53,586 nucleotides of DNA from a virus: IMG/VR virus record IMGVR_UViG_3300046524_000145, positions 1-53,586 of that record; one strand, 5' to 3'. Shown in pieces: positions 736 through 50,732 of this stretch. The translations under genes and the position numbers were made by a program. Under the pieces are notes generated by a model, which was not told where the DNA came from, did no database searches, and saw only the letters and a list, made by a program, of their open reading frames with translations. The stretch's first letter is position 1. Each line of letters starts with the position of its first letter.

Positions 736-767
736 AACACTGTAAAAGCATCCTATATGGACGTGAA
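736..767 (-). promoter_or_regulatory. Leftward early promoter with repressor-type operator
   Basis: Read leftward, TTCACG (762-767) and TACAGT (739-744) are separated by 17 bp. The repeated operator motif (736-752, strong half TGTAAAAGCATC) covers the -10 box. It would drive the gene at 352-654, the ASCH-like gene and the genes beyond the circle joint. Both halves were assigned by eye. Confidence 0.5.
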
Positions 768-780
768 AAAATATGACGAT

Positions 781-1587
781 TTAGGCTTGGCTGCGGTATG
801 AGTCCCAATCGAACGCCAGCACCCGGCCGCCGCCTTCGCGCAGCCGATCCACGACGCGAGCCGACAGATACTTTTCGATGCCGGACAGATCCTCGTTCGA
901 CACGATCACGGTCGGCTTGCACGCGTCATACCGGCCGTTGAGGATCGCGAACAGGATCATCTGCTCGTTATCGCCGCCGCCCTGCACGCCAACCTCATCG
1001 AGAACCAGCAAGTCGGGATCGACGAGCCGAGCGATGGATTCGCGCTCCGATCGCTGCGCGCCTGGCCGGTAAGACTCGCGCACGAACTGGACGGCCTCGT
1101 ATGTCCGCGCGAAGAACGGCAGATCGCCGCGACGCGCCACGACTCGCGCTATCGATATGCTCAGATGCGTCTTGCCGGTTCCGAACAAACCGCACAGGAT
1201 CAAGTTGCGTCCGGTCTTGCTGACATCGTCCCACTGCGCCGCATACTCCTGGCATGCGGCCAGCACCTTCTGCTGCGATGGCGTCTCGGCTTTGTAGGTT
1301 TCAAACGATGCCGAGTCAAAGCGCGCCGGGATCGCCGCGCCGTGCCAGCCGCTCAGAAGCGCATCGCGCCGCGCGGTGCGCGTCCGATCCGCCTCCGTCG
1401 CCACGCGTTCGGCCGCTATCATTTCGTCGGTGCATTTGTCACAACTAGTCCAGCGGGCAACGCCACCGAAGTTGGCGTTTTTGGACGTGAACTTGCCATG
1501 AGTCGTGCATGTGTCTTCGCGCTCCTCGATCTTCCTGCCGAGCAGCGACGAGACTCGCCGCGGGCCGTTAGAACGTGCCGTCTGCAT
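781..1587 (-). CDS. DnaC-like helicase loader ATPase
   Basis: A 268-aa protein with an N-terminal zinc-ribbon-like pattern (CTTH near residue 27 and CDKC near 49-52), a Walker A GLFGTGKT at about 133-140 and a Walker B LLVLDEVG near 190. This is the layout of phage DnaC/IstB-type AAA+ loaders, which deliver the host replicative helicase to a phage origin. It follows and overlaps by 20 bp the initiator-like gene, mirroring lambda O-P. The start is backed by GGAGGGG 6 nt upstream. The gene ends at 781, just before an operator-promoter region. Confidence 0.88.
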   Translation of the reverse strand: MQTARSNGPRRVSSLLGRKIEEREDTCTTHGKFTSKNANFGGVARWTSCDKCTDEMIAAERVATEADRTRTARRDALLSGWHGAAIPARFDSASFETYKAETPSQQKVLAACQEYAAQWDDVSKTGRNLILCGLFGTGKTHLSISIARVVARRGDLPFFARTYEAVQFVRESYRPGAQRSERESIARLVDPDLLVLDEVGVQGGGDNEQMILFAILNGRYDACKPTVIVSNEDLSGIEKYLSARVVDRLREGGGRVLAFDWDSYRSQA

Positions 1588-2458
1588 TGATTCCCCTCCG
1601 ATAGTCGATTGCGTGGAAGTCAGCCGCTGTCACCGGCTTCTTGTACTGCATAGGCGCGGTCGCCTTGTGCATCGAATTCCAAACCTTCTGCAGATCGCCA
1701 ACGAGGACCCCGATGTCATGCTGGCGTTCAGCGTAATAGCCGGCCATCGACAGGTAATGCGCCACCAGTTCCGGCGCCTTCTCCGCGCCGACGCTCTCGA
1801 CGATGGTCTTCAGTGAGGCGTTGACCTTTGCGTTGCGCAGCGGCTCGACGCTGTAGCGCTTCGCATAGGCAGCGCGGTACGCGTCCCATGCTGCTGAGCT
1901 CGGCGCCGGTTCGCGATTTCCGCAGCCTTTACGCTTGGCAGGTTTTTCCGGATCGGCGACCGGAGGCGCGCCAGCGTCGCCGGAGGAACCAAATAAATCC
2001 TTGCTCCCATTCAATCCTTGCTTAACATCAGTACTTACTTGTGTCGGATTAGGCGGCGACGGTTCAGCCGTCGACGGTTGAGCCGTTGACGGTTTATCCG
2101 GTGATGGTAAAAGGCGGTCCACAGGTGCCGCAGGCGTATCAGAAACGAGGTAGTCATACCCTGCGAAACTGCCGTCTGCGTTGTGCTTCGGCTTATCGCT
2201 GCGCGTGAGGTAGCCGGCGGCCATCAGTTCGGCGAGCACGGCCTTGACGCCGTCTCGTTTCGTGTGGCCGCCCGGACCGCGCAAGCTGCCGGCCGTCTCA
2301 TTGACCAGATTGGCGACCGATACCTGCCAATGGTCCGGTTTCCCCAGCAGGAAGACGAGAAGGCCGCGCGCGCCCCACGACAGGCGCTGATCTTCGCTGA
2401 TGCGCTTGTCGAGAATGTAGAAGTTGGTATCGGGGCGTGGAGCGCGAATGATCGCCAT
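1568..2458 (-). CDS. Replication initiator-like winged-helix protein (lambda O analogue)
   Basis: 296 aa. The start at 2458 (reading MAIIRAPRPDTNFYILDK) follows GGAGG and overlaps the upstream stop as TAATG. Residues 1-100 look like a winged helix of the kind that opens phage and plasmid initiators (YILDK, LSWGARGLLVFLL, then a GLKAV/AGYLTR-type wing). Residues 110-170 are a Pro/Ser-rich linker, and the C-terminal 110 residues (WDAYRAAYAKRYSVEP) probably contact the loader. Position before a DnaC-like gene supports a role in origin recognition. If the lambda analogy holds, origin iterons could lie inside the linker-coding DNA; a GTTGACGG/GTCGACGG tandem run is visible at about 2063-2095. Confidence 0.72.
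   Translation of the reverse strand: MAIIRAPRPDTNFYILDKRISEDQRLSWGARGLLVFLLGKPDHWQVSVANLVNETAGSLRGPGGHTKRDGVKAVLAELMAAGYLTRSDKPKHNADGSFAGYDYLVSDTPAAPVDRLLPSPDKPSTAQPSTAEPSPPNPTQVSTDVKQGLNGSKDLFGSSGDAGAPPVADPEKPAKRKGCGNREPAPSSAAWDAYRAAYAKRYSVEPLRNAKVNASLKTIVESVGAEKAPELVAHYLSMAGYYAERQHDIGVLVGDLQKVWNSMHKATAPMQYKKPVTAADFHAIDYRRGINADGTF
2063..2110. repeat. Short tandem repeats inside the initiator gene, possible origin iterons
   Basis: The stretch repeats variants of GACGGTT(C/G)A-GCCG(T/C)-GACGG three to four times (ggttcagccgtcgacggttg, agccgttgacggtt). It encodes the repetitive PSTAQPSTAEPSP linker. In lambdoid phages the origin lies inside gene O as iterons, so this is a plausible origin. It may equally be only a codon echo of the protein repeat. 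Confidence 0.35.
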
Positions 2459-2844
2459 TACGCCGCCTCCTTTGCGTCGGCATTCGCGTGCTTGCACTGT
2501 TGTCCGCAGGACGAGCACGTGGGCCTGGCGCGCGCCGCGAGCTTCGCCGCAGAGACGCGCGGCTCGGGGATGTTGCTCACGCCAGGAGGGTTCGTTCCGC
2601 GCGCCACGCCGATGAGCTTAGGCGACTCGCCGCTGATGCCCATCAGGTCGAGGACGGTCATGTGCGGCTCGCCTGACTGGACTAACTCCGAACTGGCCTT
2701 CGCAAGTTTGAACGCCTGACGCAAGCTAACCGGGCGGTTGCCGTTTTTGACGGTGTTCCAGTAGATGCGGCTGACGTCGATGCGCTCCAAGAGTTGCTTG
2801 ATGACGGCGACGCCGTAGTGTTCATGGAATTCTTTCGCGTTCAA
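2458..2844 (-). CDS. Early regulator, Cro/CII-like with C-terminal Cys cluster
   Basis: About 128 aa starting at a TTG (2842-2844) preceded by AAAGGAG at 6-nt spacing. The frame is open upstream but carries no better ribosome site. The N-terminus (MNAKEFHEHYGVAVIKQLLE) with a following HTH-like VSLRQAFKLAKAS resembles small phage Cro/CII-type DNA-binding proteins. The C-terminus has CSSCGQQC, a possible metal site. It is the first gene of the leftward unit and diverges from the repressor at 3095, the expected place for Cro or CII. The DNA-binding role is inferred. Confidence 0.6.
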   Translation of the reverse strand: MNAKEFHEHYGVAVIKQLLERIDVSRIYWNTVKNGNRPVSLRQAFKLAKASSELVQSGEPHMTVLDLMGISGESPKLIGVARGTNPPGVSNIPEPRVSAAKLAARARPTCSSCGQQCKHANADAKEAA

Positions 2845-2869
2845 GGTGGCTCCTTTGCCGGTTAGTTTG

Positions 2870-2904
2870 TACTCAATTGTAGCATCGCACACCGCAAAAG
2901 TTAA
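2870..2904 (-). promoter_or_regulatory. Main leftward early promoter with overlapping operator
   Basis: Reading leftward, TTAACT (2899-2904), a 17-bp spacer and TACAAT (2876-2881) form a strong sigma70 promoter. An operator variant ending in GCATC (2870-2886) covers the -10 box. It lies 26 bp upstream of the TTG of the regulator gene. Confidence 0.6.
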
Positions 2905-2956
2905 CGAACCAGCTGAATTAAGTAGCCGTTGTAACTGACTGAAATTAATCAAAAAT

Positions 2957-2973
2957 GATGCTGTTGGGGTTGC
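2957..2973. promoter_or_regulatory. Operator site, weak second half
   Basis: GATGCTGTT is a perfect left half of the repeated 17-bp element; the right half is degenerate. It sits in the repressor/regulator divergent region beside the site at 3009-3025. Confidence 0.45.
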
Positions 2974-2999
2974 CTTTTTGTTACAAACTGTCCAATATT
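2970..2999 (+). promoter_or_regulatory. Candidate repressor promoter
   Basis: TTGCCT (2970-2975), an 18-bp spacer and AATATT (2994-2999) would transcribe the repressor gene at 3095. It lies between two operator copies (2957-2973 and 3009-3025), as expected for an autoregulated repressor promoter. The boxes are only moderately good. Confidence 0.35.
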
Positions 3000-3008
3000 C
3001 GCGGATCG

Positions 3009-3025
3009 GATGCTGTAACAGTCGC
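3009..3025. promoter_or_regulatory. Operator site upstream of repressor gene
   Basis: GATGCTGTAACAGTCGC matches the consensus in its left half and centre. It would lie in the leader just downstream of the candidate repressor promoter. Confidence 0.5.
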
Positions 3026-3094
3026 TGAGGCTGTGGCACCGGTCAAGGAGAGGCGCGACGCAAGCGCCCGCACGCTACTAAAAAGGAATGGGTA

Positions 3095-3538
3095 ATGGTT
3101 ATTGAGAAGGTTGATAGGGTCCGCGCTCGAAATTTCCAGTTTCTTTTCGAGCAATTCAAGGAGGACCGGCGGCGGAAGTGGCCAGACGAGCCAGATCGAG
3201 GCATGCTCACGCGCTTCGCTGAGCACCTGGAGCTGAACAAGGTCTACTTGTCCAACATCAACTCCGGAAACAAGGTGATCGGAGTAAAGACGGCGCGGCA
3301 TATCGAAAAAATGATGAACGTGCCTGAAGGCTGGCTAGACACAGATCATTCGCGCGATGCAGCTCTGATGTCGGACGACGACGTAGCGTTTCAAGACTCG
3401 GTGATGGCGATCTATCGGCAAGCCCCCGAGGCGTCGCGTGCGGTGCTGCTTCGCGCATTCCAGGCGCTCGTCACTGGAAAGCCGATCGACGAAGCGCTGG
3501 CCGACCATTCGAACGGTACGAAAAAGCATCCGAAATAG
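3095..3538 (+). CDS. HTH phage repressor (peptidase-less CI-like)
   Basis: 147 aa. The start follows AAGGAA by 8 nt. Residues 30-75 (LTRFAEHLELNKVYLSNINSG then KVIGVKTARHIEKMMNVPEGW) are a typical XRE-type HTH with the closing W that phage repressors often show. The C-terminal part (SVMAIYRQAPEASRAVLLRAFQALV) is a short helical region, probably for dimerisation. There is no S24 peptidase domain, so RecA-triggered self-cleavage is not expected and induction must work otherwise. It is the only rightward gene facing the leftward replication unit and the best candidate to bind the dispersed GATGC-N7-GCATC sites. Confidence 0.75.
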   Translation: MVIEKVDRVRARNFQFLFEQFKEDRRRKWPDEPDRGMLTRFAEHLELNKVYLSNINSGNKVIGVKTARHIEKMMNVPEGWLDTDHSRDAALMSDDDVAFQDSVMAIYRQAPEASRAVLLRAFQALVTGKPIDEALADHSNGTKKHPK

Positions 3539-3625
3539 GTGTGCACCCTTTTTCGGTAATTATTACGAACGGTATTAGTCGTAAGAAAAAGTTACGAAAA
3601 TGCTTGCGCGGTACGCTATGAAGCG

Positions 3626-3642
3626 GCTACTCTTACAGCATC
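3626..3642. promoter_or_regulatory. Operator half site downstream of repressor gene
   Basis: The sequence ends TTACAGCATC, the conserved right half; the left half is not conserved. It lies between the repressor and the 71-aa gene. Confidence 0.35.
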
Positions 3643-3689
3643 GCATTTCGCGGTGATCAAGTGAAAATAAGTCGGGAGATGGGGCTGAA

Positions 3690-3905
3690 ATGGTTTCTTT
3701 GACAGATGCAGGGGCGACACACAACGGCGGAGTTCCGGTCGCCGATTTCCATGATTCGTTATCGAACGATAGCGACAACGACTATGAGGTGATAGCTGCA
3801 ATTCGCGCGATCCCGGCGCACAAACGCGGGGAGTTGCTTGCCGGGTTGCAAGCGCTCCTTTGCACCGATACAACACACACTGTAAAGGCATCATTTAGAG
3901 CTTGA
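3690..3905 (+). CDS. Small protein of unknown function downstream of repressor
   Basis: 71 aa, not recognised as a family. It starts ATG after GGGG at about 5 nt. The C-terminal segment (AIPAHKRGELLAGLQALL) resembles the repressor's C-terminal helix (APEASRAVLLRAFQALV) in its P-A-x-x-R-x-x-LL-x-x-x-QAL spacing. It may share a partner interface or compete for dimerisation. Its stop lies inside the operator-rich stretch 3876-3923. It is short and lacks a database match I can name, so existence is likely but not certain. Confidence 0.45.
   Translation: MVSLTDAGATHNGGVPVADFHDSLSNDSDNDYEVIAAIRAIPAHKRGELLAGLQALLCTDTTHTVKASFRA
3876..3892. promoter_or_regulatory. Operator half site at end of the 71-aa gene
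   Basis: CACTGTAAAGGCATC carries the conserved right half of the repeated element. It lies 14 bp before another copy at 3907-3923. Confidence 0.45.
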
Positions 3906-3931
3906 CGATGCTGTTACGATTCTGGTACGAT
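3902..3931 (+). promoter_or_regulatory. Rightward promoter with operator in the spacer
   Basis: TTGACG (3902-3907), an 18-bp spacer and TACGAT (3926-3931) make a good promoter pointing right. Operator 3907-3923 (GATGCTGTTACGATTCT) fills the spacer, so repressor binding would block polymerase. No ORF follows before two terminators. Confidence 0.55.
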
Positions 3932-4014
3932 TTCTCTACCATGTGATCACTGCGTCTAAGGCATTTAGCGCTGTGATTGGCCGGTTCCTTCCGTGACTCC
4001 GACCGAGTCATTTA

Positions 4015-4044
4015 CCGCTCGCCGAATGGCTTGAGCGGATTTTT
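4015..4044 (+). terminator. Intrinsic terminator, first of tandem pair
   Basis: A 6-bp stem CCGCTC/GAGCGG (4015-4020, 4033-4038) is followed by ATTTTTATT. Confidence 0.5.
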
Positions 4045-4052
4045 ATTCAGAA

Positions 4053-4087
4053 CGCCGTCGCCCGACTAGCTCGCGCGGCGGTTTTTT
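4053..4087 (+). terminator. Intrinsic terminator, second of tandem pair
   Basis: The CGCCG/CGGCG stem is separated by a GC-rich apical region and followed by TTTTTTG at 4082-4088. Confidence 0.6.
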
Positions 4088-4146
4088 GTTTGTGTTGCGC
4101 CAAAGCAAAACGTGATGGCCGTCACATACTTTCTAGCGGCGGAGTG

Positions 4147-4163
4147 ATAGCAGTAACAGCATC
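4147..4163. promoter_or_regulatory. Operator site
   Basis: ATAGCAGTAACAGCATC keeps the centre and right half of the element. It lies between the rightward and leftward terminators; the promoter it controls is not obvious. Confidence 0.45.
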
Positions 4164-4175
4164 CGATCAGTCGGT

Positions 4176-4199
4176 AAAAAAGCCCGCTCGTGGCGGGCT
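4176..4199 (-). terminator. Intrinsic terminator for leftward small operon
   Basis: Reading leftward, AGCCCGC/GCGGGCT (stem 7 bp, loop 5) is followed by six T residues. It ends transcription of the genes at 4274-4720 before it reaches the switch region. Confidence 0.8.
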
Positions 4200-4273
4200 A
4201 AACGTAAGTCTCGAAACGGCATGGCTATAACCTCAGCACAGGATTCCGCTGCGTGAGCGCTTTCATGGTCGCA

Positions 4274-4363: not shown

Positions 4364-4418
4364 ACGTTGCTCCCTTCGTTGTGGTTGGTGGTTTGCTGCG
4401 AATGCTTTGCCGCGCTAG

Positions 4419-4720: not shown

Positions 4721-4765
4721 CGAGCCTCCTGTTGGTTCGCGCCCTGTTTGTTTGGGCATGTGCGT

Positions 4766-4795
4766 ATGATGCCGTAACAGCATCTTTATGTGCAA
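4766..4795 (-). promoter_or_regulatory. Leftward promoter with perfect operator palindrome
   Basis: GATGCCGTAACAGCATC (4768-4784) is the best copy of the repeated element, with perfect 5-bp arms. Leftward boxes TTGCAC (4790-4795) and CATCAT (4766-4771) flank it at 18 bp. An A/T-rich run (GAAATTTTC) sits just upstream, resembling an UP element. Confidence 0.6.
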
Positions 4796-4882: not shown

Positions 4883-4909
4883 TATTAACCATTTCGCAAG
4901 GGATTGGAC

Positions 4910-5953: not shown

Positions 5954-6025
5954 GGGTGGTAGCTCAGGGAGTAGGACGGATTCCAAATCCGAGCCGAGGA
6001 GGTTCGATTCCTTCACTGCCCGCCA
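5954..6025 (+). tRNA. tRNA-Trp-like gene, anticodon CCA
   Basis: A 72-nt cloverleaf with an encoded CCA end (6023-6025). The acceptor stem GGGTGGT/ACTGCCC (5954-5960, 6015-6021) has two G-U pairs. The anticodon loop TTCCAAA gives anticodon CCA at 5983-5985 on a 4-bp stem, and the T arm GGAGG-TTCGATT-CCTTC is well formed. The D arm is poor and residues 8-9 read AG instead of TA. It is either a divergent phage tRNA or a decaying copy. It lies at the head of the late region. Confidence 0.65.
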
Positions 6026-33898: not shown

Positions 33899-34040
33899 TT
33901 CTGCCCTCCTTCCGTTGACATACTGCTTGTTTTTCATACTGCACATAGTAACAGACAAAATACCATATAGGCATCGTCGCAGCAACCGGGCTTTATATCA
34001 CGATTTATGTGCGGCAGGCAACGGAATCCATCCGCAACAA

Positions 34041-34553: not shown

Positions 34554-35192
34554 TCATCGCGCCCCGCTTTTCCGTCCAAATCCCAGCGCGGCGGGCCTGC
34601 CATACCGTGCAAACTTGATCTTCAGCCAGTCGCGCGACCGGCCTTTCTGATAGGTCGAGTCGAGCCGCTTGGCCACCATGCCCTCCAGGTCGCGCGCCTG
34701 CACCTGCTTGAATACCCAGACTCCCGCCGAAACGACTCCGCTTACGTAGACTAGCGTCCCCGTATCGTCGAAGCTATCGCGCAGCAAGCCCTTTCGTTCG
34801 GCGAGCGGCAGCCTGCGAAGGTCGCGGCCATCACTTGCCATCATATCGAACACATAGAGCCGCGCCGGGTTCTCGCGTGCGGCGGCCCGAACACGCATCG
34901 GCACGGATGTTCTGGCGCGACTCTGGAGCCGCTCGAACGATGGGCGCCCCTTAAAGTCATCGACCGTAAGCTCGGCATCCAGGACGAAGTCGCCGGGAAC
35001 AGATTCCACGGCAGCGACAACATCCGGGAAAGAAGGGTTCATCAGATTGCCCTGTCGCGAGATCAGTTCGACCCGCGATCCCTCTTTGCGCGTGAGGCAG
35101 CGGAAGCCGTCATACTTCAGCTCAAACAGCCATCCATCTGCGGAAAATGGCGTGGCCCGCAGCGTGGCGTGCATCAGGTCGGACGCATCCAT
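34554..35192 (-). CDS. Minimal ATP-dependent DNA ligase, adenylation domain only
   Basis: 212 aa from ATG 35192. Motif I is ELKYDGFR with Lys26 as the adenylated residue. A motif III-like YVFDMMASDG, a motif IV-like DLEGMVAKRLD and a motif V-like RDWLKIKFARYG follow. The OB-fold domain found even in the smallest phage ligases is missing: only about 20 residues follow motif V. It may work with a partner or be an evolved remnant. It overlaps no neighbour but is adjacent to the 78-aa gene stop. Confidence 0.72.
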   Translation of the reverse strand: MDASDLMHATLRATPFSADGWLFELKYDGFRCLTRKEGSRVELISRQGNLMNPSFPDVVAAVESVPGDFVLDAELTVDDFKGRPSFERLQSRARTSVPMRVRAAARENPARLYVFDMMASDGRDLRRLPLAERKGLLRDSFDDTGTLVYVSGVVSAGVWVFKQVQARDLEGMVAKRLDSTYQKGRSRDWLKIKFARYGRPAALGFGRKSGAR

Positions 35193-35658: not shown

Positions 35659-35786
35659 CGTCGCACCTCGATACTGTATGGATGCACAGTATATGCGAAG
35701 GGGGCCGCACTCACTTACCATCTCGGGGGACTCGTTCCCGCCTCCTAGACTGCCGGCCGCTTCGGTTCGTCGAAGCGTAATGGCCA

Positions 35787-36088: not shown

Positions 36089-37363
36089 ATGCGTTTTGAT
36101 GCGCGCGCTGCGAGCAAGCTGAGTGCTGGCGAGCACATTACCTTCGATGGCTTCCCTGGGCTGCGATTGCAGGCGACAGAGAGCCGCCGCTCGTGGACGT
36201 ATCGCTACAAGTCGCCAATCGATGAGCGGATGCGGCAGATCAAACTAGGCGAGTGGCCAGCGCTCTCATACGCGGGCGCGATCTCGGAATGGGAAAAGCA
36301 CCGTGCCGCGCGTGACGCCGGCGAAGATCCTGCTGCGGCGAAGCGCCAGGCGAAGCAGCCGGCGTCCAACGTTGGACCGACGTCCGCGTACACAGTCAAG
36401 CAGCTTTGCCGCGACTACCTAGCGGGGCATATCGAGCCGAACAGAAAGGCCAAGGGCGCGACGGAAGTGACGCGCATGTTCAAGGGCATGCTGGGGCCGA
36501 TCGCGGATGCGCCGGCCGAGTCCATCACACGCTCGCAAGCATTCGACTTCCTCGACTCGCTTCGCGCGACGCCGGTTCTCGCCGGCCGCCTGCGCATGGA
36601 GTTGGGTGGGGCGTGGGATTACGCGCTCGATGCTGGCCGTCTGTCGGACAACACGCCTAACTGGTGGCGTCAGGTTATGCGCGGCCGGCTGCGCAGCAAT
36701 GGCAGGAAGATTGAAGGCATAGCGTCTGGCACGAAGAAGCGCACACTGTCCGATGTTGAGCTTGGCATTCTGCTGCGCTGGCTGCCGAACCTGAGCCTTG
36801 CCGTTTCCGATGGCTTGACGATGTACCTGTGGACCGGTACGCGCGGGGGTGAAATCGTCAGCATGGAAACGCGCGAGATAACAGAGGAAAGCGACGGCCT
36901 ATGGTGGACCATCCCGAAGCACAAGACAAAGAACGCGAAGCGCGCGAGCGCGACTGATTTGCGCGTGCCGCTCATTGGTCGGGCAGAGGTGATTGTGAGG
37001 CGTCGACGCGAGCAGGCGAAAGATGGATTCCTGTTCCCGTCATCGGCCGGCGGCCATGCCAATCAGACGGTCATTCAGCACGGCATCTACTATCACATGC
37101 CTTACTGCAAGATCGCGCCGGATCATGACAGGCCGCGAATTCCTGTAACGCACTGGTCCGCGCATGACTTGCGCCGCACAGTGCGGACGATGCTGGCTGC
37201 AATGGGGTGCCCGCACGAGATAGCTGAGTCGATCATCGGCCACGTGCAGCCGGGAGTGGCTGGCGTCTACAACCGCCACCACTACGACCCGGAGCGGCGC
37301 GACTGGCTCACGCGGCTCTCTCAGCGGCTCGAGGAGATTGCCGCGACTCATCCTGCGAAGTAG
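36089..37363 (+). CDS. int: Tyrosine-type integrase
   Basis: 424 aa preceded by AAGGAA. The N-terminal DUF4102-like part (FPGLRLQATESRRSWTYRYK) is followed by a SAM-like core-binding domain and a catalytic domain with R252 (GTRGGE), a Lys near 277-279, HDLRR (H359, R362), GHVQPG (H385) and Y394 (VYNRHHY). It integrates the phage by site-specific recombination. The 3-prime end overlaps the opposite-strand excisionase gene by 56 bp. Confidence 0.9.
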   Translation: MRFDARAASKLSAGEHITFDGFPGLRLQATESRRSWTYRYKSPIDERMRQIKLGEWPALSYAGAISEWEKHRAARDAGEDPAAAKRQAKQPASNVGPTSAYTVKQLCRDYLAGHIEPNRKAKGATEVTRMFKGMLGPIADAPAESITRSQAFDFLDSLRATPVLAGRLRMELGGAWDYALDAGRLSDNTPNWWRQVMRGRLRSNGRKIEGIASGTKKRTLSDVELGILLRWLPNLSLAVSDGLTMYLWTGTRGGEIVSMETREITEESDGLWWTIPKHKTKNAKRASATDLRVPLIGRAEVIVRRRREQAKDGFLFPSSAGGHANQTVIQHGIYYHMPYCKIAPDHDRPRIPVTHWSAHDLRRTVRTMLAAMGCPHEIAESIIGHVQPGVAGVYNRHHYDPERRDWLTRLSQRLEEIAATHPAK

Positions 37364-39556: not shown

Positions 39557-39630
39557 TTGCATATGTCCGGGCTGGTTACAGTCCATTCGCCAATGTCATC
39601 TTTCAACACTGCGTCTGTATTCGTGCTCAT
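39553..39630 (-). CDS. 25-codon micro-gene coupled to mosaic protein
   Basis: The peptide MSTNTDAVLKDDIGEWTVTS-PDICK ends with TGA overlapping the next ATG. GAGGACACC precedes the start at 39630. The good ribosome site and exact coupling argue that it is translated, if only to couple the downstream gene. Confidence 0.45.
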   Translation of the reverse strand: MSTNTDAVLKDDIGEWTVTSPDICK

Positions 39631-39644
39631 GGTGTCCTCACTCG

Positions 39645-39986
39645 TTACGCGCTGCGCTTAACGGCCGGCGCGCGCAGGAACGCTGGCGCCTTGCCGATCT
39701 GAATGCGCACCGGTTCGCCGGTACGCTGCGCGAGAATGGTTGTGACCGCATCGACCAGGCCGTGCGTCAACTGGTGTGTCGGCTCGTTGGCATGCAGATA
39801 GGCGTGTGCGCGTTCAATCAGCGCAGCGCCCAAGATGTCGTACTTCACTTGTTGTCTCGCAGGGTATCGGTTGTGCCGAGCCGCCTGCTGTGCGCGAGCT
39901 GCGCGATGGTGTGATGCGCGCACTGCGGCGGCCACTGGTAACGGGCGCTGCGTGCGTAATAAGCTGCTCATGTTCGTGTGGTGCAT
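39645..39986 (-). CDS. Hypothetical early protein behind operator cassette
   Basis: 113 aa from ATG 39986, preceded by GGAAGG. The N-terminal third is basic and low-complexity (PLPVAAAVRASHHRAARAQQ) and the conserved-looking C-terminal two thirds read KYDILGAALIERAHAYLHAN, then ILAQRTGEPVRIQIGK. It is the first gene behind the promoter-operator at 40011-40056. Confidence 0.55.
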   Translation of the reverse strand: MHHTNMSSLLRTQRPLPVAAAVRASHHRAARAQQAARHNRYPARQQVKYDILGAALIERAHAYLHANEPTHQLTHGLVDAVTTILAQRTGEPVRIQIGKAPAFLRAPAVKRSA

Positions 39987-40010
39987 GGTTCCTTCCGTTC
40001 TTTTTGTTTG

Positions 40011-40056
40011 GATGCTGCGACGGTGTAAAGATACCGTAACAGCATCCGAGATGCAA
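40011..40056 (-). promoter_or_regulatory. Leftward promoter with tandem operators
   Basis: Operators at 40011-40027 (GATGCTGCGACGGTGTA) and 40030-40046 (GATACCGTAACAGCATC) lie 19 bp apart. Leftward boxes TTGCAT (40051-40056) and TATCTT (40028-40033) have a 17-bp spacer that contains the second operator. Confidence 0.65.
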
Positions 40057-42103: not shown

Positions 42104-42862
42104 TCATGCATGCTCCAAGGCGAAGCCGGTTTGAATCGGTGCGATCGAGCGCACCCAAAATGTCGGGGACTGGTGCGCCTCGATGCGCTCGCGCATTACC
42201 TGCGCGCGGGCTTCTTTTGTCGGTGGCGTGTACGGGCCGCGCCATTTGCTGTCGATACCGATGTTCTGACCGATGTTCGTGCTGTCGGCGCTGGCAAGCG
42301 GGAAGCGCGTGAAAACGTCCGGATTCAGCATGCGTAAGCCGTGCAGCTTGCAGACTGGCCGGCCGTCGCGGTCGCATATGACGTCCATTGCTTCCGACAT
42401 GCGCGTGTACCAGGCCGGCGAGCCGACTGTTGCGAACTCGCCCGAACTTCCAAGGCAGATGCGCGGCCACGCAAGCGCTAGACGCTCTAGGCGCTCGATG
42501 CTTTCGTGCAGATGCCAAACCGGCGCGCCAACGTGAGGCGCGCGCTCGCGCCATGGCCATTCGTCAAGCAGGGCGTCGTTTGCCGCCTCGTCGCCGTCGA
42601 TCACATCAGGGATAACCGCGAAATCGAATGATGGGTATCGGTGCAGTTCGGCAACCCATTCATAGAACGGGCGCCAGTCGGTTACTGGTTTGCCACTGCG
42701 CCACGCGGAGAAGGCGCCATTGTCGATCGCGAACGACGATGCAACTTCGAGCGCAAGTCCAAGTTGCTCCGGATGCTGGAAGGAAACGAATGCGTGGCCG
42801 GCGGACAGAGCGCGGACGGCGGCCGTCGACGGTGTAATTGGAGTGCCGTGATAGTGAATCAT
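42104..42862 (-). CDS. tRNA-guanine-transglycosylase-like protein (DpdA-like)
   Basis: 252 aa. FAIDNGAFSAWRSGKP, FAVIPDVIDGDEAANDAL and KLHGLRMLNPDVF then ASADSTN resemble the TIM-barrel TGT fold and the phage DpdA branch, where H-G-x-G/R and S-x-D-S-T are conserved. The canonical zinc site of tRNA TGT (CxCxxC) is not seen, as expected in DpdA-type enzymes. If genuine, it could exchange guanine for a 7-deazaguanine in phage DNA using host-made precursor, since no que genes are in the window. Confidence 0.5.
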   Translation of the reverse strand: MIHYHGTPITPSTAAVRALSAGHAFVSFQHPEQLGLALEVASSFAIDNGAFSAWRSGKPVTDWRPFYEWVAELHRYPSFDFAVIPDVIDGDEAANDALLDEWPWRERAPHVGAPVWHLHESIERLERLALAWPRICLGSSGEFATVGSPAWYTRMSEAMDVICDRDGRPVCKLHGLRMLNPDVFTRFPLASADSTNIGQNIGIDSKWRGPYTPPTKEARAQVMRERIEAHQSPTFWVRSIAPIQTGFALEHA

Positions 42863-43104
42863 GCGCGCGCTCCACTGTGGACGTAGGGGTTGCGCTCATG
42901 CTCAGTTAGGCCCGCGATGTAGTCGAGGCTGACGCCAAAGAGCTTTGCCAGATCGGCCGCCATCATCAGTCCGGGAGCGTGCTCGTTTCGCTCCACTTGG
43001 CCGATGTAGCTGGTATGCATGCGGATGCGCTCGCCAACGGCCGCAAGCGTCATGTTCCGATCGCCGCGAAGTCGCCTGATGCGCTCGCCGATGGTTTCCT
43101 TCAT
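42859..43104 (-). CDS. XRE-type HTH regulator
   Basis: 81 aa. ERIRRLRGDRNMTLAAVGER and MHTSYIGQVERNEHAPGLMM form a classic XRE HTH, with a short helical end. It is coupled by ATGA at the 3-prime end to the TGT-like gene. It could be a second-level phage regulator; it is unrelated in detail to the repressor at 3095. Confidence 0.82.
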   Translation of the reverse strand: MKETIGERIRRLRGDRNMTLAAVGERIRMHTSYIGQVERNEHAPGLMMAADLAKLFGVSLDYIAGLTEHERNPYVHSGARA

Positions 43105-44843: not shown

Positions 44844-44872
44844 GCAATTGTAAAAGCATCCAATGCGGTCAA
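44844..44872 (-). promoter_or_regulatory. Leftward promoter-operator before gp157
   Basis: Operator GCAATTGTAAAAGCATC (44844-44860); leftward TTGACC (44867-44872) is followed 17 bp later by AATTGC. The A/T-rich stretch 44871-44880 upstream resembles an UP element. The upstream gene's TGA overlaps the -35. Confidence 0.5.
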
Positions 44873-45111
44873 ATTTTTTTGCGCAGCACGCCGCGCCACT
44901 CGAAGCCGCCTTGACGCTTGGCTTCGCGGCTCGGTATGTGCCGACACGCATATGCGTTGTCAGGCGTCTGCGCCGAGTAACACCAATGCTTGCCAGTCCA
45001 GTACGAGAACCAGCGAAAGAGGGGCTTGCCATTCGGCTTGTGCTGCACCTCATAAACGCCAACGTGACGCGGGGTAGTGCGCTTGTCGAACCAGTGCGTG
45101 AACTGCGGCAT
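44869..45111 (-). CDS. Hypothetical phage protein
   Basis: 80 aa from ATG 45111 with AGGAGAG upstream. MPQFTHWFDKRTTPRHVGVY and FRWFSYWTGKHWCYSAQTPD make it Trp/aromatic-rich, a pattern seen in small phage early proteins by memory. Its stop lies within the -35 of the next promoter. Function unknown. Confidence 0.6.
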   Translation of the reverse strand: MPQFTHWFDKRTTPRHVGVYEVQHKPNGKPLFRWFSYWTGKHWCYSAQTPDNAYACRHIPSREAKRQGGFEWRGVLRKKI

Positions 45112-45181: not shown

Positions 45182-45198
45182 AATGCCGTAAAAGCATC
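45182..45198. promoter_or_regulatory. Operator site between SSB-like gene and 80-aa gene
   Basis: AATGCCGTAAAAGCATC; only one base differs from a perfect palindrome arm. A leftward TATAGA/CATTAT element is present immediately beyond it and an A/T-rich run (AAATTTTTTT) lies upstream. The exact promoter boxes are unclear. Confidence 0.5.
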
Positions 45199-45220
45199 CT
45201 ATCGTGGGAAATTTTTTTGA

Positions 45221-45886
45221 TCAGAAGGGGATCTGGTCGTCGAAGGGCGCGCCGTCATCGAACGCACCGCCATGCATGCCGTCATCGCTGCCGCGCGCGC
45301 CGCTCGACCGCGCATTCCCGCCGGCCTTCTTCTTGAGCGGGCGATCGCGCAGCGATTCAACGAGTGATGCGAGCTTTTCCGGGTGCGTCTTGCGGTCCAG
45401 AATCTCGCTGGCGACCAGCTCGTCAGCGGCGCGGAACACGGCGTTGAGTCGTGCGCTCCATCCGAAGCCGCCGTCTTGGCGCTCGTATTCCTCCATGATG
45501 AACAGCGCGCCGATCTGCTTGTTGAGCAATTCCGTGAACTGCATCGCTTCGCGCTCGACGTTCGCTTTCGCGTCGCGGTCATACTCGACGAGCTTCGACA
45601 GCGTCGGCTTCATGTCGCGGATGCTGAGGCAGGTCATGATCGCGATCACGAGGCCGTAGTCGTTTAGCTTCGTGCCGTCTGCTTTCTCGGTGTAGATCGA
45701 GAAGTTCGACAACACGCCATCATTGCCCTTGAACGAGAACGCGATGCCGCGCGCGCCGCTCCTGGCCTTGATGTCTTCGGCCTTGGTGAACACGCCGACG
45801 TATTTGCCCTTCTCGTCGATGAACGAGGTGCGGTTCTCCGACTTGCGCGCCGCTTCCGTGGCTTCTTTGCTGAGTGCGTATGACAT
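45221..45886 (-). CDS. ssDNA-binding-like protein with SSB C-terminal tip
   Basis: 221 aa from ATG 45886. The N-terminal 150 residues do not match the usual OB signature, but the chain ends DDQIPF after a flexible Gly/Asp tail. This is the conserved acidic tip through which SSBs recruit partners (compare DDDIPF). It follows the Sak4 gene. It is best seen as a functional SSB analogue or a recombination mediator. The fold is unverified. Confidence 0.68.
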   Translation of the reverse strand: MSYALSKEATEAARKSENRTSFIDEKGKYVGVFTKAEDIKARSGARGIAFSFKGNDGVLSNFSIYTEKADGTKLNDYGLVIAIMTCLSIRDMKPTLSKLVEYDRDAKANVEREAMQFTELLNKQIGALFIMEEYERQDGGFGWSARLNAVFRAADELVASEILDRKTHPEKLASLVESLRDRPLKKKAGGNARSSGARGSDDGMHGGAFDDGAPFDDQIPF

Positions 45887-46559: not shown

Positions 46560-46650
46560 TTTTCGCTCCTTTGGTTTCCGTTCGTTCCTGTTCGTACTGC
46601 TGTTGCTCTTCCTGCTCCTGCATTTGCCGCCACTCAGCGCCGTCCGTCAT
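46441..46650 (-). CDS. Gln/Glu-rich small protein overlapping Sak4 start
   Basis: 69 aa starting MTDGAEWRQMQEQEEQQQYE; GGGAG lies 6 nt upstream. It overlaps the Sak4 gene by 119 bp in another frame. Coupling by ATGA to the 30-codon micro-gene and the ribosome site favour it; the C-terminal half reads like a shadow of Sak4 and may not be conserved. Confidence 0.4.
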   Translation of the reverse strand: MTDGAEWRQMQEQEEQQQYEQERTETKGAKNGNRHADSRHVRNRQVNRDARVGPGANAVDPGSQEACAF

Positions 46651-46739
46651 GTCAGGCTCCCGAGTGCGTCGCGTGCGGCCTGTGCGCTCAATGCGAGGCA
46701 CACCGCCGCAGCGATCGCCCAATCAAGTGCGCATCTCAT
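46647..46739 (-). CDS. 30-codon hydrophobic micro-gene
   Basis: MRCALDWAIAAAVCLALSAQ then AARDALGSLT, a possible membrane peptide or signal-like segment. It overlaps the next gene as ATGA and the upstream gene by 17 bp. The ribosome site is weak (GGGATT). Confidence 0.35.
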   Translation of the reverse strand: MRCALDWAIAAAVCLALSAQAARDALGSLT

Positions 46740-47133
46740 TGGCAATCCCGTCGATCTCTGCACGCAGCACCTTGGCCCGCGTCATCAGTAGGCCGAGCCA
46801 GCCGTCTGCGGCCGCGTCGGGGTAGAGCGCTGCGTGACGGTCCCATTCGTCGCCGAGCTCGCGCAGCAGCGCGTACACATCGGGAAACTTTGCTGCGATC
46901 CGCGATTGGCGATCAAGTTCGGCGAGGGTTAGGACGTCGGCGATGTACTGTTCGCCAGCATTGCGAAGCACGTCCAGCGATACGGGCGTCGGCACTGGCT
47001 TAGCGTTTCTATCGTTATTCATTACAGCATCCATCAAGCGCAAATTTTTTCCCGCGACAGCGGACTGGCGCGGGCGGAACACTGCGTGGGAGCGTAATAA
47101 TAACGCGTTGTTGGCGTGTGCGGCTGTTTGCAT
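46723..47133 (-). CDS. Hypothetical early protein with internal operator
   Basis: 136 aa from ATG 47133 (GGAAG at 7 nt). The N-terminal 35 residues (MQTAAHANNALLLRSHAVFR) are joined to a helical core (MNNDRNAKPVPTPVSLDVLR). The DNA at the join carries an operator/promoter cassette (47015-47043), so MNNDR may be an older or alternative start and the N-terminus a later fusion. Confidence 0.55.
   Translation of the reverse strand: MQTAAHANNALLLRSHAVFRPRQSAVAGKNLRLMDAVMNNDRNAKPVPTPVSLDVLRNAGEQYIADVLTLAELDRQSRIAAKFPDVYALLRELGDEWDRHAALYPDAAADGWLGLLMTRAKVLRAEIDGIANEMRT
47015..47043 (-). promoter_or_regulatory. Operator/promoter cassette inside a coding region
   Basis: The operator right half TTACAGCATC (47022-47031) and leftward boxes TTGCGC (47038-47043) and GAATAA (47015-47020), 17 bp apart, preceded by an A/T-rich run, repeat the geometry of the intergenic cassettes. 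It lies within the gene at 46723-47133, next to an internal ATG. Confidence 0.45.
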
Positions 47134-47177
47134 GATGACTTCCTTCCGTTTGGTTGTTGTTGTGCTGCGGTGATTGA

Positions 47178-47206
47178 ATGATGCCGTAACAGCATCCATA
47201 ACGCAA
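47178..47206 (-). promoter_or_regulatory. Leftward promoter with perfect operator palindrome
   Basis: GATGCCGTAACAGCATC (47180-47196) is identical to the copy at 4768. TTGCGT (47201-47206) and CATCAT (47178-47183) are separated by 17 bp. The transcript starts the gene at 47133. Confidence 0.62.
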
Positions 47207-47238
47207 GCGCTTCGTGCGAAATATTTTGCGCGACTGCC

Positions 47239-47619
47239 TTACGTCATTGCCTGCACATGCGCCAGCGCTGCTTGCGCGTGCTCAAGCTGCCGTTGCAGGT
47301 GGTGGATCTGCCACTCTTTCCGGGCGATGAATGACTCGCGGGCCAGTTCCTCGGTCGGATATGCCCACTTCTTGCGCGCGCCATCGAGAATGAATCGCTC
47401 AACGCCGAAGTCATCGATCCAGCAGCCTTTCGGCGTCTTGCGCTTGATCTCGTAGTGTTCGAGCACGATTGTGACTATGAGCGGCTTCCACGACGCCTCC
47501 CGATACGCCGACGAGGAATAGCGGCAGAGGCTGCCGAGCTTCCACCAAGGCAGCGGATCGCGCCCACGCACGGTGATGACGTCCTTGTCACTCTCCACAA
47601 GGTCGAAAACGGCGCTCAT
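47239..47619 (-). CDS. Hypothetical early protein
   Basis: 126 aa starting MSAVFDLVESDKDVITVRGR, with AAGGAG upstream and ATGA coupling to the gene upstream. The middle is basic (RYSSSAYREASWKPLIVTIV), and the C-terminus is a coiled helix (WQIHHLQRQLEHAQAALAHV). No recognised family. Confidence 0.6.
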   Translation of the reverse strand: MSAVFDLVESDKDVITVRGRDPLPWWKLGSLCRYSSSAYREASWKPLIVTIVLEHYEIKRKTPKGCWIDDFGVERFILDGARKKWAYPTEELARESFIARKEWQIHHLQRQLEHAQAALAHVQAMT

Positions 47620-48071
47620 ACCCGCTCCTTCGGTGAGGCCGCAAGCGCGAGAACTGAGCGACCCATGCGAATCCAGTGCTGATAGTCGCCGTCGTCGCAG
47701 TATGCCGGCGTCAGAATCATCGCCATTCGGATTTGCTCGTCACTCACTTTCGCGGCGCTAGGTTCCTGCTTCGCAATCCATTCGATTAGCGATACCTGAT
47801 CGCGCTTCCAGTCCTTTTCGTCGTGCACGTAACCGAAGCGTTCGCACAACTGGCGATGGAAGTTCTTAAAGTTGGCATCGATGGCTCGCGCATCCTTCAA
47901 TTGCACCTGTAGCGTGCGGATCTCGGCTTGCAGCACGGCTTCGCGGTTGATAGCGTCCTCGGCGCGCACATAGTCGCCGTCGCTCGACGCATCCATCGTG
48001 TAGCATCCGTAGCAGTGCGCCGATCCGCCGTTCGTGCAGTCGAACCGGTCATAAACAAATGTCTTGCTCAT
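47616..48071 (-). CDS. Hypothetical early protein, Ea-type mosaic
   Basis: 151 aa. A Cys-containing start (YDRFDCTNGGSAHCYGCYTM) precedes a coiled helix (NREAVLQAEIRTLQVQLKDA) and a C-terminal module (MAMILTPAYCDDGDYQHWIR) seen in mosaic phage early proteins by memory. GGGAGG precedes the ATG, and the start is coupled to the upstream stop. Confidence 0.55.
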   Translation of the reverse strand: MSKTFVYDRFDCTNGGSAHCYGCYTMDASSDGDYVRAEDAINREAVLQAEIRTLQVQLKDARAIDANFKNFHRQLCERFGYVHDEKDWKRDQVSLIEWIAKQEPSAAKVSDEQIRMAMILTPAYCDDGDYQHWIRMGRSVLALAASPKERV

Positions 48072-49186
48072 GCTGCCTCCCGCGCTGCGCCGAACTCAAT
48101 CACGCGGTTCGGCGCCGCGCTCCATCCCTTCACCTCGTCGGCGGTGAACTTGCCGGCCTTCGATTGATCGCTCGTGTAGCCGCAAAATCCGGCGCAGTGA
48201 TAGAGCTTGTGTTCGTCGTGCCACACGTTGAACAGTTGCGGATTGCCGGGGAATGCAATGTCGCGCAGCACCGCGGCGCGCTCGAAGTCCATCCGCTCGA
48301 CGGCCTTCGCCAGTTCGCGCTCGAGGCGCTTGCGGCGCAGACCAGCATTGCGCTTGATGCGCGGGTTCTCCGGACACTTTGTATACAACTCGAAGCAGGC
48401 TTCGTTCGTGTAGTCGTACCGACCCATGACGACCCACCACATGTTGTTGATGTTGTAGTATGCGGTCCCTTCTACAATGCGGCCTTTGCGGTCTGCGAAC
48501 CAAACGCGCTGACCGTGCTCAAGCTGCGCTCCATCGGCTGACTTGCGGTTGTAATCCATCGAGCCATTCTTTTCCAGATAGCCCGGCCAGTCGCCTTTAA
48601 AGTGCCAGCTTTCTGCGTAGCGCTCGTGAATCCGCTCGAGCGCGGTTTTTTCGAGCGGCTTGCGATAGATGCTGTGCTTCTCTGCGTCGAACTCGTAGCC
48701 AGTGAAGACGTTGCAGAGGTAATCCCGGATGCGGCGACGCGTGCGCTCCATTTCTAGGCGGATCGCGTAGGGCATGCATGCCTCTTTATCCGACTCATAC
48801 CGGCCATCATGGTCGGGGCGCGTCGGAGTGTTGATCGACTGAAACATCTTGAACTCAATGCATCGACCGCTGATCGACAAGTCAGCCTTGAGATCGCCCT
48901 TCATGCAGAAGCGTTTTCGTTCTGCCGACCATCGAGCCACGTTGCCGCCGTATTGCTTGACGTCGCGTTCGTCGATGGTCGGCATGGCGCAGTTCCAGCC
49001 GAGCCGGTTTAGCGCCTGGATAATTCGCGCAAAAACGTCGCGCTTGAATTGCCGCTCCCAACGCTTGCCGCCCTCGTAGCCGCCGGCGTCGCGCGCGTCA
49101 CTGATTCCGTCTTCCCACACGTGTAACGCGGCGTCGTGAAATACGATCCGCCCGGTGCGTTCGATTCGTCCTTTGGTGAGGCTCAT
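48068..49186 (-). CDS. PD-(D/E)XK-like nuclease candidate with UVR-type motif
   Basis: 372 aa. The N-terminal third holds MKGDLKADLSISGRCIEFKM, where D-x(n)-E-F-K is the core of a PD-(D/E)XK nuclease. The C-terminal portion has LERELAKAVERMDFERAAVL then RDI, the UVR motif of UvrB/UvrC. It could be the nuclease partner of the Sak4 annealer, since no lambda-type exonuclease is seen. Both motifs are short, so the fold is a hypothesis. Confidence 0.45.
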   Translation of the reverse strand: MSLTKGRIERTGRIVFHDAALHVWEDGISDARDAGGYEGGKRWERQFKRDVFARIIQALNRLGWNCAMPTIDERDVKQYGGNVARWSAERKRFCMKGDLKADLSISGRCIEFKMFQSINTPTRPDHDGRYESDKEACMPYAIRLEMERTRRRIRDYLCNVFTGYEFDAEKHSIYRKPLEKTALERIHERYAESWHFKGDWPGYLEKNGSMDYNRKSADGAQLEHGQRVWFADRKGRIVEGTAYYNINNMWWVVMGRYDYTNEACFELYTKCPENPRIKRNAGLRRKRLERELAKAVERMDFERAAVLRDIAFPGNPQLFNVWHDEHKLYHCAGFCGYTSDQSKAGKFTADEVKGWSAAPNRVIEFGAAREAA

Positions 49187-50358
49187 GCTGCCTCCTCCTG
49201 CGCTTCGGTCTGGCGGGCGAGGGCGATAGCTTGCTCGGCGGTTTCGATGATGTGCCAGAGCGCGTTGTGCATCGCTTCGTCGTTGCGGTCGCGGTTCCAG
49301 TACTCGGCGATGTGCTCCAGCGCTTCGAGCATCGCGGGCGCGGCGTTGCGCACGGCAGTCTCGGCGGCTTCGCGTGCACGGCGTTCGGCTGCATCGCGCT
49401 CGGCTTGTGCGCGGCGCTCGGCGGCTGCCGCTTCTTCGGCTGCGCGACGCTTGGCGGCGGCAACGGCTTCTTCGGCGCGCAGGCGGGCGGCTTCTTCGTC
49501 GGCGATGCGTTGGCGCTCGGCGGCCAGCTCGGCAGTTTGGCGGGCGACCGCGGCGCGATCTTCGGCCATGCGCTTCTCGTGCGCCTCGCGCTCGGCGCGC
49601 ATCGCTTCGTCAGCCTTGCGTTGTGCTTCTCGGCGTTGCGCTTCCTCTGCCTCTCGTGCTTCGTGGTCTTTGCGCTCTTGCTCGGCGCGCGCGGCGGCAG
49701 CCTGGCGCTCGCGTTCCTGCTGCTCTGCGCGTTGCTTCGCCAGTGCCGCACGCTCGGCGGCCAGTTGCGCGGCTTCCTCGGCGCGGCGGACCGCGGTCGC
49801 GTGCATGTCGCGCAGCTTGGCGAGAACGTCGGTGCGCGCGAGGTGCGCGGCGTCGAGCTGGTCGTCGAACTCGGCGGCGACCACTTCGAACGCTTCCATG
49901 TCGGCGATGGCGTTCGCGATCCGATCGGGAGCCGCGTCGACCAGGTTGACGGGCACCGCTCGCAGTTCGTCGAGCTTGGCGCGGATCTCGTCCTTGCGGC
50001 GTTGGGCGGCCTGCACTTTCTCGCGGCGCTCGGCTTCAACGGCCGTATCCCATCCTTCGCGCAACTTCAGCAGGCGCGTCTCTTCCGGCTCGATGAGGGC
50101 AACAAGCCGATCTTCCTCGGCGATCACTGCCTTGCTGAACTTCGTCGCGTCGTCGCGCGCTTCCTTACCGACACGACGAATGTCCGTGCGCCGGTTCTTC
50201 AGCACCATGTACGCGCCGTGCACCTGAGTGCGGCCGTCTGCGTTCTTGATCGCGATAATGTCGGCGGCTTGCTTTGCCAGCTCGACGAGTGCGGGTTCGT
50301 GGTCAGTACTGCGAAGCGCAATCTTGGCTCGGTCCAATACGGTCAGTTCGGTAGACAT
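49183..50358 (-). CDS. Long coiled-coil early protein (TolA-like by composition)
   Basis: 391 aa from ATG 50358 with AAAGGAACC. Residues 1-100 are globular (DRAKIALRSTDHEPALVELA) and 170-370 a highly charged Ala/Glu/Arg coiled coil (EERERQAAAARAEQERKDHE-like repeats). It is often mis-annotated as TolA. It lies early in the recombination operon and resembles Gp157-type organisers only by composition. Role unknown. Confidence 0.65.
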   Translation of the reverse strand: MSTELTVLDRAKIALRSTDHEPALVELAKQAADIIAIKNADGRTQVHGAYMVLKNRRTDIRRVGKEARDDATKFSKAVIAEEDRLVALIEPEETRLLKLREGWDTAVEAERREKVQAAQRRKDEIRAKLDELRAVPVNLVDAAPDRIANAIADMEAFEVVAAEFDDQLDAAHLARTDVLAKLRDMHATAVRRAEEAAQLAAERAALAKQRAEQQERERQAAAARAEQERKDHEAREAEEAQRREAQRKADEAMRAEREAHEKRMAEDRAAVARQTAELAAERQRIADEEAARLRAEEAVAAAKRRAAEEAAAAERRAQAERDAAERRAREAAETAVRNAAPAMLEALEHIAEYWNRDRNDEAMHNALWHIIETAEQAIALARQTEAQEEAA

Positions 50359-50411
50359 GCTCGGTTCCTTTGTTGGTTGCTGAATGAGGGTTCGGGCAGT
50401 GCTGGCGGCTG

Positions 50412-50660
50412 TCAGAGTGCGCAGATGCGCCAGGCGCGAACCCAAACGCGATATTTGTGGCGCGTCGGGATTTCCACGATAAACAACCCGTCGACGTTGG
50501 GATGCTCAAGATCTTCGTTGTCGTGGTGCGCGACGACGATGACGCCGCGCGAACCCTTTCGGATGTTGCACTGCATGTCACCGAGGTCGATGGTCATATT
50601 GCCGGTGAACTCGACTTGCTGGCCTACCACGTGCGTGCGGATGATTTCTTGGGCTTCCAT
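50412..50660 (-). CDS. Hypothetical early protein behind operator cassette
   Basis: 82 aa from ATG 50660 with AAAGGAAC. MEAQEIIRTHVVGQQVEFTG then NMTIDLGDMQCNIRKGSRGV gives a small beta-rich domain, unrecognised. It is the first gene behind the double operator at 50686-50732. Confidence 0.6.
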   Translation of the reverse strand: MEAQEIIRTHVVGQQVEFTGNMTIDLGDMQCNIRKGSRGVIVVAHHDNEDLEHPNVDGLFIVEIPTRHKYRVWVRAWRICAL

Positions 50661-50685
50661 CGTCGTTCCTTTGTTTGTCGTGTCG

Positions 50686-50732
50686 GATGCTGCAATAGGT
50701 GTAAAGATACTATTACAGCATCTATAACGCAA
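50686..50732 (-). promoter_or_regulatory. Leftward promoter with tandem operators
   Basis: Operators at 50686-50702 and 50706-50722 (GATACTATTACAGCATC) lie 20 bp apart. TTGCGT (50727-50732), a 17-bp spacer and TATCTT (50704-50709) are the clearest promoter of the set; the second operator fills the spacer. Confidence 0.68.

Follow-up and report, generated by a model that had tools for sequence, protein, structure and literature searches.

We analysed the IMG/VR virus record IMGVR_UViG_3300046524_000145 over its whole length of 53,586 bp, referred to below as the window, with regard to a 17-bp palindrome that recurs in front of the early genes. The record carries a 27-bp direct terminal repeat and is hence probably a complete circular phage genome. 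The phage is temperate, and an integrase gene was found at 36089-37363. Its immunity region has a lambda-type layout, in which divergent genes for an XRE-type repressor and for a small Cro-like protein flank a control region bearing copies of the palindrome. A small open reading frame (ORF) and the gene for a non-coding RNA (ncRNA) follow behind the repressor. In this study, "operator" means a site predicted from the sequence. The original prediction for this DNA had listed 18 such sites and proposed that a single helix-turn-helix (HTH) repressor silences many early promoters through them. The features are collected in Table 1.

Table 1 Predicted features of the window. Promoter boxes are given in the direction of transcription; mismatches are counted against the symmetric 17-mer described in the text; L127, G003 and G006 are related contigs.
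Feature	Position	Strand	Remarks
Operator	736-752		-35 side of leftward promoter (-10 at 726-731); 3 mismatches; kept in L127 and in the orthologous promoter of G006/G003
Cro-like small protein	2458-2844	-	TTG start; first gene of leftward replication operon; conserved MNA[KQ]E.. gene, present at this position also in W-type relatives and in G001
Operator half	2870-2886		overlaps -10 (TACAAT) of Cro-like/replication operon; block fully conserved in L127
Operator, repressor/Cro-like control region	2957-2973		4 mismatches; 2 in the G006 orthologue (25538); kept in L127
Operator, repressor/Cro-like control region	3009-3025		upstream of repressor; 2 mismatches; kept in L127
Compact XRE-type repressor, 147 aa	3095-3538	+	PHROG 5736 transcriptional regulator; 18 homologues aligned
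Operator upstream of small ORF	3626-3642		2 mismatches; kept in L127
Small ORF, 71 aa	3690-3905	+	conserved behind repressor
Operator in 3' end of small ORF	3876-3892		31 bp from 3907
ncRNA promoter TTGACG (3902-3907), 18-bp spacer, TACGAT (3926-3931)	3902-3931	+	spacer holds operator 3907-3923
Operator (half-site) in ncRNA promoter spacer	3907-3923		promoter sequence; L127/G006 conservation
ncRNA, about 110 nt	3937-4046	+	three hairpins; a T-run (terminator) comes after the third; conservation, folding, covariation
Promoter TTGCAC-N18-CATCAT	4766-4795	-	perfect operator 4768-4784
Promoter TTGCTG-N17-TATTTT	33957-33985	-	operator 33959-33975; heads 33898-33301
Ribosome-binding site ACGGAAGGAACC of gene 39986	39987-39998	-	perfect 12-nt complement of ncRNA bases 3983-3994
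Promoter TTGCAT-N17-TATCTT	40028-40056	-	operator 40030-40046; heads 39986-37598
Operator of operon 44820-40063	44844-44860		Gam-like protein, NinG and others; 4 mismatches
Operator of transcript starting at 45111	45182-45198		2 mismatches; intergenic
Ribosome-binding site ACGGAAGGAA of gene 47133	47140-47149	-	10-nt complement of ncRNA
Promoter TTGCGT-N17-CATCAT	47178-47206	-	perfect operator 47180-47196; heads 47133-45221 (Sak4, SSB)
Promoter TTGCGT-N17-TATCTT	50704-50732	-	operator 50706-50722; heads 50660-47239

The motif was scored as the symmetric 17-mer GATRCYGTNACRGYATC. A symmetrised, iterated matrix built only from the window began to pick up coding noise, so that we relied on mismatch counts, shuffled sequences and relatives instead; a loose palindrome count allowing five mismatches gave no discrimination. 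At 0, 1, 2, 3 and 4 mismatches, 3, 1, 3, 10 and 13 sites were observed, against 0, 0, 0.18, 1.8 and 13.1 in the shuffles. Seven sites therefore lie within two mismatches where 0.2 were expected, and all seven are intergenic, the non-coding share of the window being 9.6%. The excess over shuffled sequence that the original prediction had proposed to look for was thus obtained, and the motif is clearly commoner between genes than within them. Matches with up to two mismatches are certain, and those with three are credible mainly when intergenic; matches with four were accepted only together with other evidence.

All 18 listed sequences occur at their positions, and about 13 of them stand by sequence or conservation. 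The sites at 3009, 3626, 4768, 40030, 45182, 47180 and 50706 are solid by sequence, and conservation in L127 or G006 backs those at 736, 2870, 2957, 3876 and 3907. The nearest relative, the 5-kb contig L127, whose repressor is 72% identical, keeps these five together with 3009 and 3626. Site 44844, weak in the window, is backed by the orthologous promoter (AAAAAAATTTGACCGC), where the operator has one mismatch in G006 and three in G003. The remaining five of the list (4147, 4862, 47015, 40011 and 50686) are weak: 4862 is an off-consensus 21-bp variant, yet an operator is present at the same place in relatives; 47015 is a half-site inside an ORF by our gene calls; and 40011 and 50686 are second half-sites within the leader, each downstream of a good operator and ahead of the gene. 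A layout scan added one site that the list had lacked, 33959-33975, with full promoter layout. The earlier statement that the late genes are free of the motif holds for the good sites; degenerate three-mismatch matches do occur in late coding sequence. Across all viral contigs, an exact motif search gave about chance numbers, and one multi-match locus (L006) was set aside, its sites being spaced at multiples of 120 and probably belonging to a coding repeat.

The position of the operators relative to promoters was examined. The promoter boxes drawn earlier at 4766-4795, 40011-40056, 47178-47206 and 50686-50732 were found to be right and to run leftward. At 4768, 33959, 40030, 47180 and 50706, read in gene direction, TTGNNN is followed after 4-5 nt by the operator, whose last four bases form the start of the -10 box (CATCAT, TATTTT or TATCTT), with sigma-70 spacers of 17-18 bp. 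The register was also scored over 61 intergenic sites from this phage and its family, 13 phages in all, with the nearest downstream gene as the sole guide to orientation: TTG starts at a distance of 10 nt ahead of the operator in 14 sites and of 11 nt in 8 (22 of 61), compared with about 1.2 per offset elsewhere. Part of the -10 likeness comes from the operator itself, and the lock to the -35 box is therefore the independent evidence. In one relative (G001), the palindrome fits between both boxes (TTGACG-GCTATCATGAAGATAGCC-TATTAT). In several leftward promoters (44844-44886, 45182-45224 and 47015-47057), and also in relatives, a AAATTTTTT tract precedes the operator half GGATGC by about 9 bp; such tracts are possibly UP elements.

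With operon boundaries taken from our own gene calls, operators head nearly every early leftward operon. The early leftward genes form tandem operons headed by the operators 736, 50706, 47180, 45182, 44844 and 40030; the operon behind 736 begins at 654 and continues over the junction of the circular record as far as 50742. Operators are also present in the 2845-3094 control region, where the replication operon starts, and site 33959 heads a two-gene leftward cassette adjoining the late region. Two operator-controlled first genes, 39645-39986 and 46723-47133, have similar leaders and N-termini (MHHTNMSSLLRTQRP.., MQTAAHANNALLLRSHA..) and look as if they were products of a duplicated promoter-leader cassette. 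Two operator pairs by the ncRNA promoter are 31 bp, or three helical turns, apart (3876/3907 in the window and 26450/26481 in G006), a spacing that suggests cooperative binding.

The product of 3095-3538 had been called an HTH repressor from its sequence, and PHROG, PDB profile and fold comparisons all agree on an XRE/HTH protein. Its recognition helix comprises residues 49-57 (KVYLSNINS). In the AlphaFold model, the HTH has a predicted local distance difference test score of about 90, and the C-terminal helical hairpin is of low confidence. The best PDB match is Rep in entry 5d50, a repressor-antirepressor (Rep-Ant) complex of a Salmonella temperate phage (profile E 8e-7, fold E 1.5e-3), with the match confined to the N-terminal part. 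This is the closest solved structure, and repressors of the phiV10/epsilon15 type are distant sequence relatives; identity to these proteins is about 25-37% over the HTH. The 147 residues consist of the HTH plus short helices and include no S24 peptidase domain, the part that undergoes RecA-stimulated cleavage in lambda-type repressors; since the peptidase part is missing, induction through self-cleavage is unlikely. The Cro-like protein had no match in Pfam or PHROG.

A single-sequence search of viral and genome contigs gave no close relatives of the repressor, and its relatives were recovered only by profile search. Related phages were gathered with this profile and by searches with Sak4 and the replication initiator; among relatives whose host is named, Paraburkholderia prophages (piptadeniae, caffeinitolerans and phosphatilytica) are the nearest. 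In eight related contigs found with the initiator, some of them near-duplicates, the motif had 28 matches and the reversed pattern none. Furthermore, when each phage was searched de novo for a symmetric 17-bp motif, scored by intergenic excess, most relatives yielded a dispersed palindrome of this length in a version of their own. The palindromes are GATGCTGTnACAGCATC in the window, GATACCGTnACGGTATC in G006/G007, GATACTATnATAGTATC in G008, GATACCATnATGGTATC in L145/L146, GATACGATnATCGTATC in L169/L171, AATAC..GTATT in L163/L165, GCTACCGA.. in L120/L121, ACTACC.. in L182 and ACTATCATnATGATAGT in G001; the optimum of G006 is a shifted register of the repeat otherwise seen as GATACYGTNACRGTATC. 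The excess over shuffles was modest in L120 and L182, and L121, L158 and L163 barely exceeded them. When the versions were scanned across genomes, the own version or a close one was enriched in most of them.

Diverged repressors accompany diverged operators at the same places in these relatives, the Paraburkholderia prophages included. Distances between repressors are correlated with those between operators (Mantel r 0.37-0.44, p about 0.02). At the level of clades, a recognition helix with YLS-N/Q is associated with half-sites of the form [GA]AT.., and one with S-H with [AG]CT..; this pairing is an association short of proof. Closely related phages thus offer a natural series of about ten differently spelled repressor/operator pairs, in which immunity groups and the DNA-recognition rules of compact XRE repressors become directly testable.

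Taken together, the fixed register to the -35 and -10 boxes, the position at the head of operons and the parallel divergence support, as far as sequence comparison goes, the proposal of one repressor over many early promoters. We give a probability of roughly 0.85 to a dispersed promoter-operator regulon read by the compact XRE repressor. A dimer of this protein, probably together with the Cro-like protein, would bind the 17-bp palindrome (consensus GATGCYGTNACRGCATC) in the spacer and -10 of the early-operon promoters at 736, 2870-3025, 4768, 33959, 40030, 44844, 45182, 47180 and 50706. In a lysogen, binding would repress, with RNA polymerase blocked at all early promoters at once, and the repressor would also control itself, the neighbouring small ORF and the ncRNA gene. 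Because the palindrome stands in nearly all early-operon promoters and is respelled in the same places in relatives, the entire early programme is probably under the control of one silencing repressor. Such a regulon would explain how one protein can silence many separate early operons.

Several observations weigh against this interpretation. Several listed sites are only half-sites. Among the leftward gaps longer than 60 bp, 39557-39644 and 46560-46722 have no operator, and the de novo search found no motif above shuffles in L152, L173, L177, L180 and L181. Moreover, the distances of the Cro-like proteins track the operator at least as well as those of the repressor, in a test in which two Cro-like proteins were mis-picked; co-divergence accordingly does not separate the two proteins as binders, since both follow the operator. 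This last result favours an explanation in which the dispersed sites are mainly targets of the Cro-like protein for early shut-off during lytic growth and the repressor is limited to the 2870-3025 region. We regard it as unlikely: the Cro-like proteins of W-type and G007/G008-type phages differ much, yet the operators of G006 and G007 are identical (GATACCGT). Lambda CI and Cro read the same operators, and as both proteins do so in lambda-type switches, the two explanations are compatible; by this analogy the Cro-like protein may share operators with the repressor.

The palindrome always accompanies promoters, and some copies lie at or above the -35 box, namely 736 and, in the L163 group, a site that precedes the ncRNA promoter, as would suit an activator site or a phage-specific promoter element. 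Most copies, in contrast, fall between sigma-70 boxes and cover the spacer and -10, as is typical of repression, and the palindrome is also found in the repressor's own control region; we consider such a role improbable. Still less probable are stoperators of the L5 type that block elongation. In the cluster A mycobacteriophages (L5, Bxb1), 20-30 dispersed sites exist in phage-specific versions that track the repressor; they are asymmetric, lie for the most part outside promoters, and act mainly by blocking elongation (PMC6550527). The many dispersed copies of one site in the window, presumably with one reader repressor, resemble that arrangement. The L5 sites, however, are oriented with transcription and lie mostly away from promoters (PMC6550527), whereas these are palindromic and phase-locked to promoters. 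Of the likeness to L5 that the original prediction had drawn, the dispersion remains; beyond it, the sites here are palindromic promoter operators. That the copies are chance or compositional repeats would fit those with at least four mismatches, which stand at chance level. The shuffles, the reversed-pattern control and the independent relatives all speak against it, and it is already refuted for copies with at most two mismatches; we consider it next to negligible overall. LexA control of the dispersed sites was also rejected, as LexA-like boxes (at most one mismatch) occur at the chance number and the spacing of the motif differs.

Dispersed promoter operators under one repressor are already known from two systems. 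In P1, the repressor C1 acts on 22 asymmetric 17-bp operators (ATTGCTCTAATAAATTT) dispersed at lytic genes (PMC8546580), and the immunity system includes the small proteins Coi and Lxc and the antisense RNA c4 (PMC8546580, PMC12197685). In both phages, 17-bp operators are dispersed over lytic genes, and the small ORF and RNA of the immunity region here may be auxiliary parts of a like kind. Unlike the asymmetric P1 operators, those here are palindromic, with a compact XRE protein as repressor. In SPbeta, the master repressor MrpR (YopR) acts on the repeated element SPBRE in about ten promoter regions (PMC10516654). The repetition of one repressor element over many promoters is common to both, although the SPbeta element has 15 bp and its repressor a recombinase fold, in contrast to a 17-bp palindrome and an XRE protein here. 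In the window, the unexpected part is the attached RNA. In the literature collection that was searched, no paper on this phage family came up. The conserved inverted repeats of phiC31 are dispersed inverted-repeat operators at early promoters; the likeness is in site layout, and the host group is unrelated.

We also examined the small ORF behind the repressor. An ORF of 60-95 aa stands there in nearly every clade inspected, with clear sequence likeness among W-type clades. It has no HTH, and its core resembles the C-terminal helical hairpin of the repressor (hhalign P 0.0015, score 20.5; the maximum of 60 column shuffles was 11.8); a direct BLASTP comparison of repressor and small ORF gave no match. 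As a guess, its product could be a partner or antagonist of the repressor.

The ncRNA was found as 19 distinct variants across 33 loci with a common layout, and a promoter resembling TTGAC..-N17/18-TAYNAT is conserved in W-type relatives. Operator 3907 belongs to this promoter and to no protein gene. Eight folded sequences, that of the window included, form the same three hairpins (z -3.2 to -5.1). In hairpin 2, 63 of 63 positions are paired over nine sequences, with compensatory changes and several pair types per position; with the arms taken by hand from the folds, re-dealt arms were never as good in 2000 trials. A search of Rfam gave no match near the gathering score. The ncRNA as a structure is well supported by folding and covariation, and it would be transcribed from the predicted promoter. 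We rejected the possibility that it is the leader of a late operon: the genes that come next (4720-4419) lie on the opposite strand. A conserved RNA with covarying hairpins that Rfam lacks is exposed in the immunity region of the phage.

Between hairpins 1 and 2, an unpaired UCCUUCC or similar sequence was observed (the UUCCUUCC segment). Besides the two ribosome-binding sites in Table 1, this segment complements that of gene 33898 over 9 nt, and all three genes (39986, 47133 and 33898) lie directly behind operators. Genes behind operators match the segment better than others (pooled p 1.5e-8); compared with other leader genes, the match was 6.2 vs 4.2 (p 1e-8), while plain Shine-Dalgarno strength differed little (4.7 vs 4.3). 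Against such targeting, the segment is anti-Shine-Dalgarno by nature and the early leaders may have arisen by duplication of a cassette; taken alone, L142, L145 and L171 showed no difference, and scrambled seeds did equally well in 5 of 10 phages. Swapping seeds was mostly uninformative because seeds are common to phages. Targets on early mRNAs would hence be only a lead. In P1/P7 and P22, the immunity-region antisense RNAs c4 and sar pair with phage mRNA and block its translation (PMC12197685). A structured, covarying RNA is likewise predicted in the immunity region here; several early mRNAs, however, are predicted as its targets, and it matches no Rfam family. Both c4 and sar act on ant.

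These observations raise the tentative picture of a two-tier regulon. Dispersed operators would act at the early promoters, an operator-controlled (3876/3907) small RNA would pair through UUCCUUCC with the ribosome-binding sites of the 39986, 47133 and 33898 mRNAs, and the small ORF would adjust repressor activity. We consider it possible but doubtful as a whole; if true, the whole early regulon would be tuned at both transcription and translation.

Since the repressor has no self-cleavage domain, induction would need an antirepressor; no Ant homologue was identified in the window. A strong LexA-like box (TACTGTATGGATGCACAGTA) was found at 35672-35691; the leftward operon that follows it comprises two small genes and a DNA-ligase domain. 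Homologues of these genes occur in G008 and G006, and another strong LexA-like box lies elsewhere in G006/G003. The box could be an SOS input, and nothing links its genes to the repressor. The ATP-dependent DNA ligase domain (34554-35174) has 206 aa only, being an adenylation domain without the usual other domains.

The window also encodes Sak4 and SSB, NinG-like and Gam-like proteins, and an IstB/DnaA-like ATPase together with a replication initiator. A second regulator gene of the HTH_3 type lies at 42859-43104 within operon 44820-40063, and a tRNA-Trp gene (5954-6025) is located where the late region starts.

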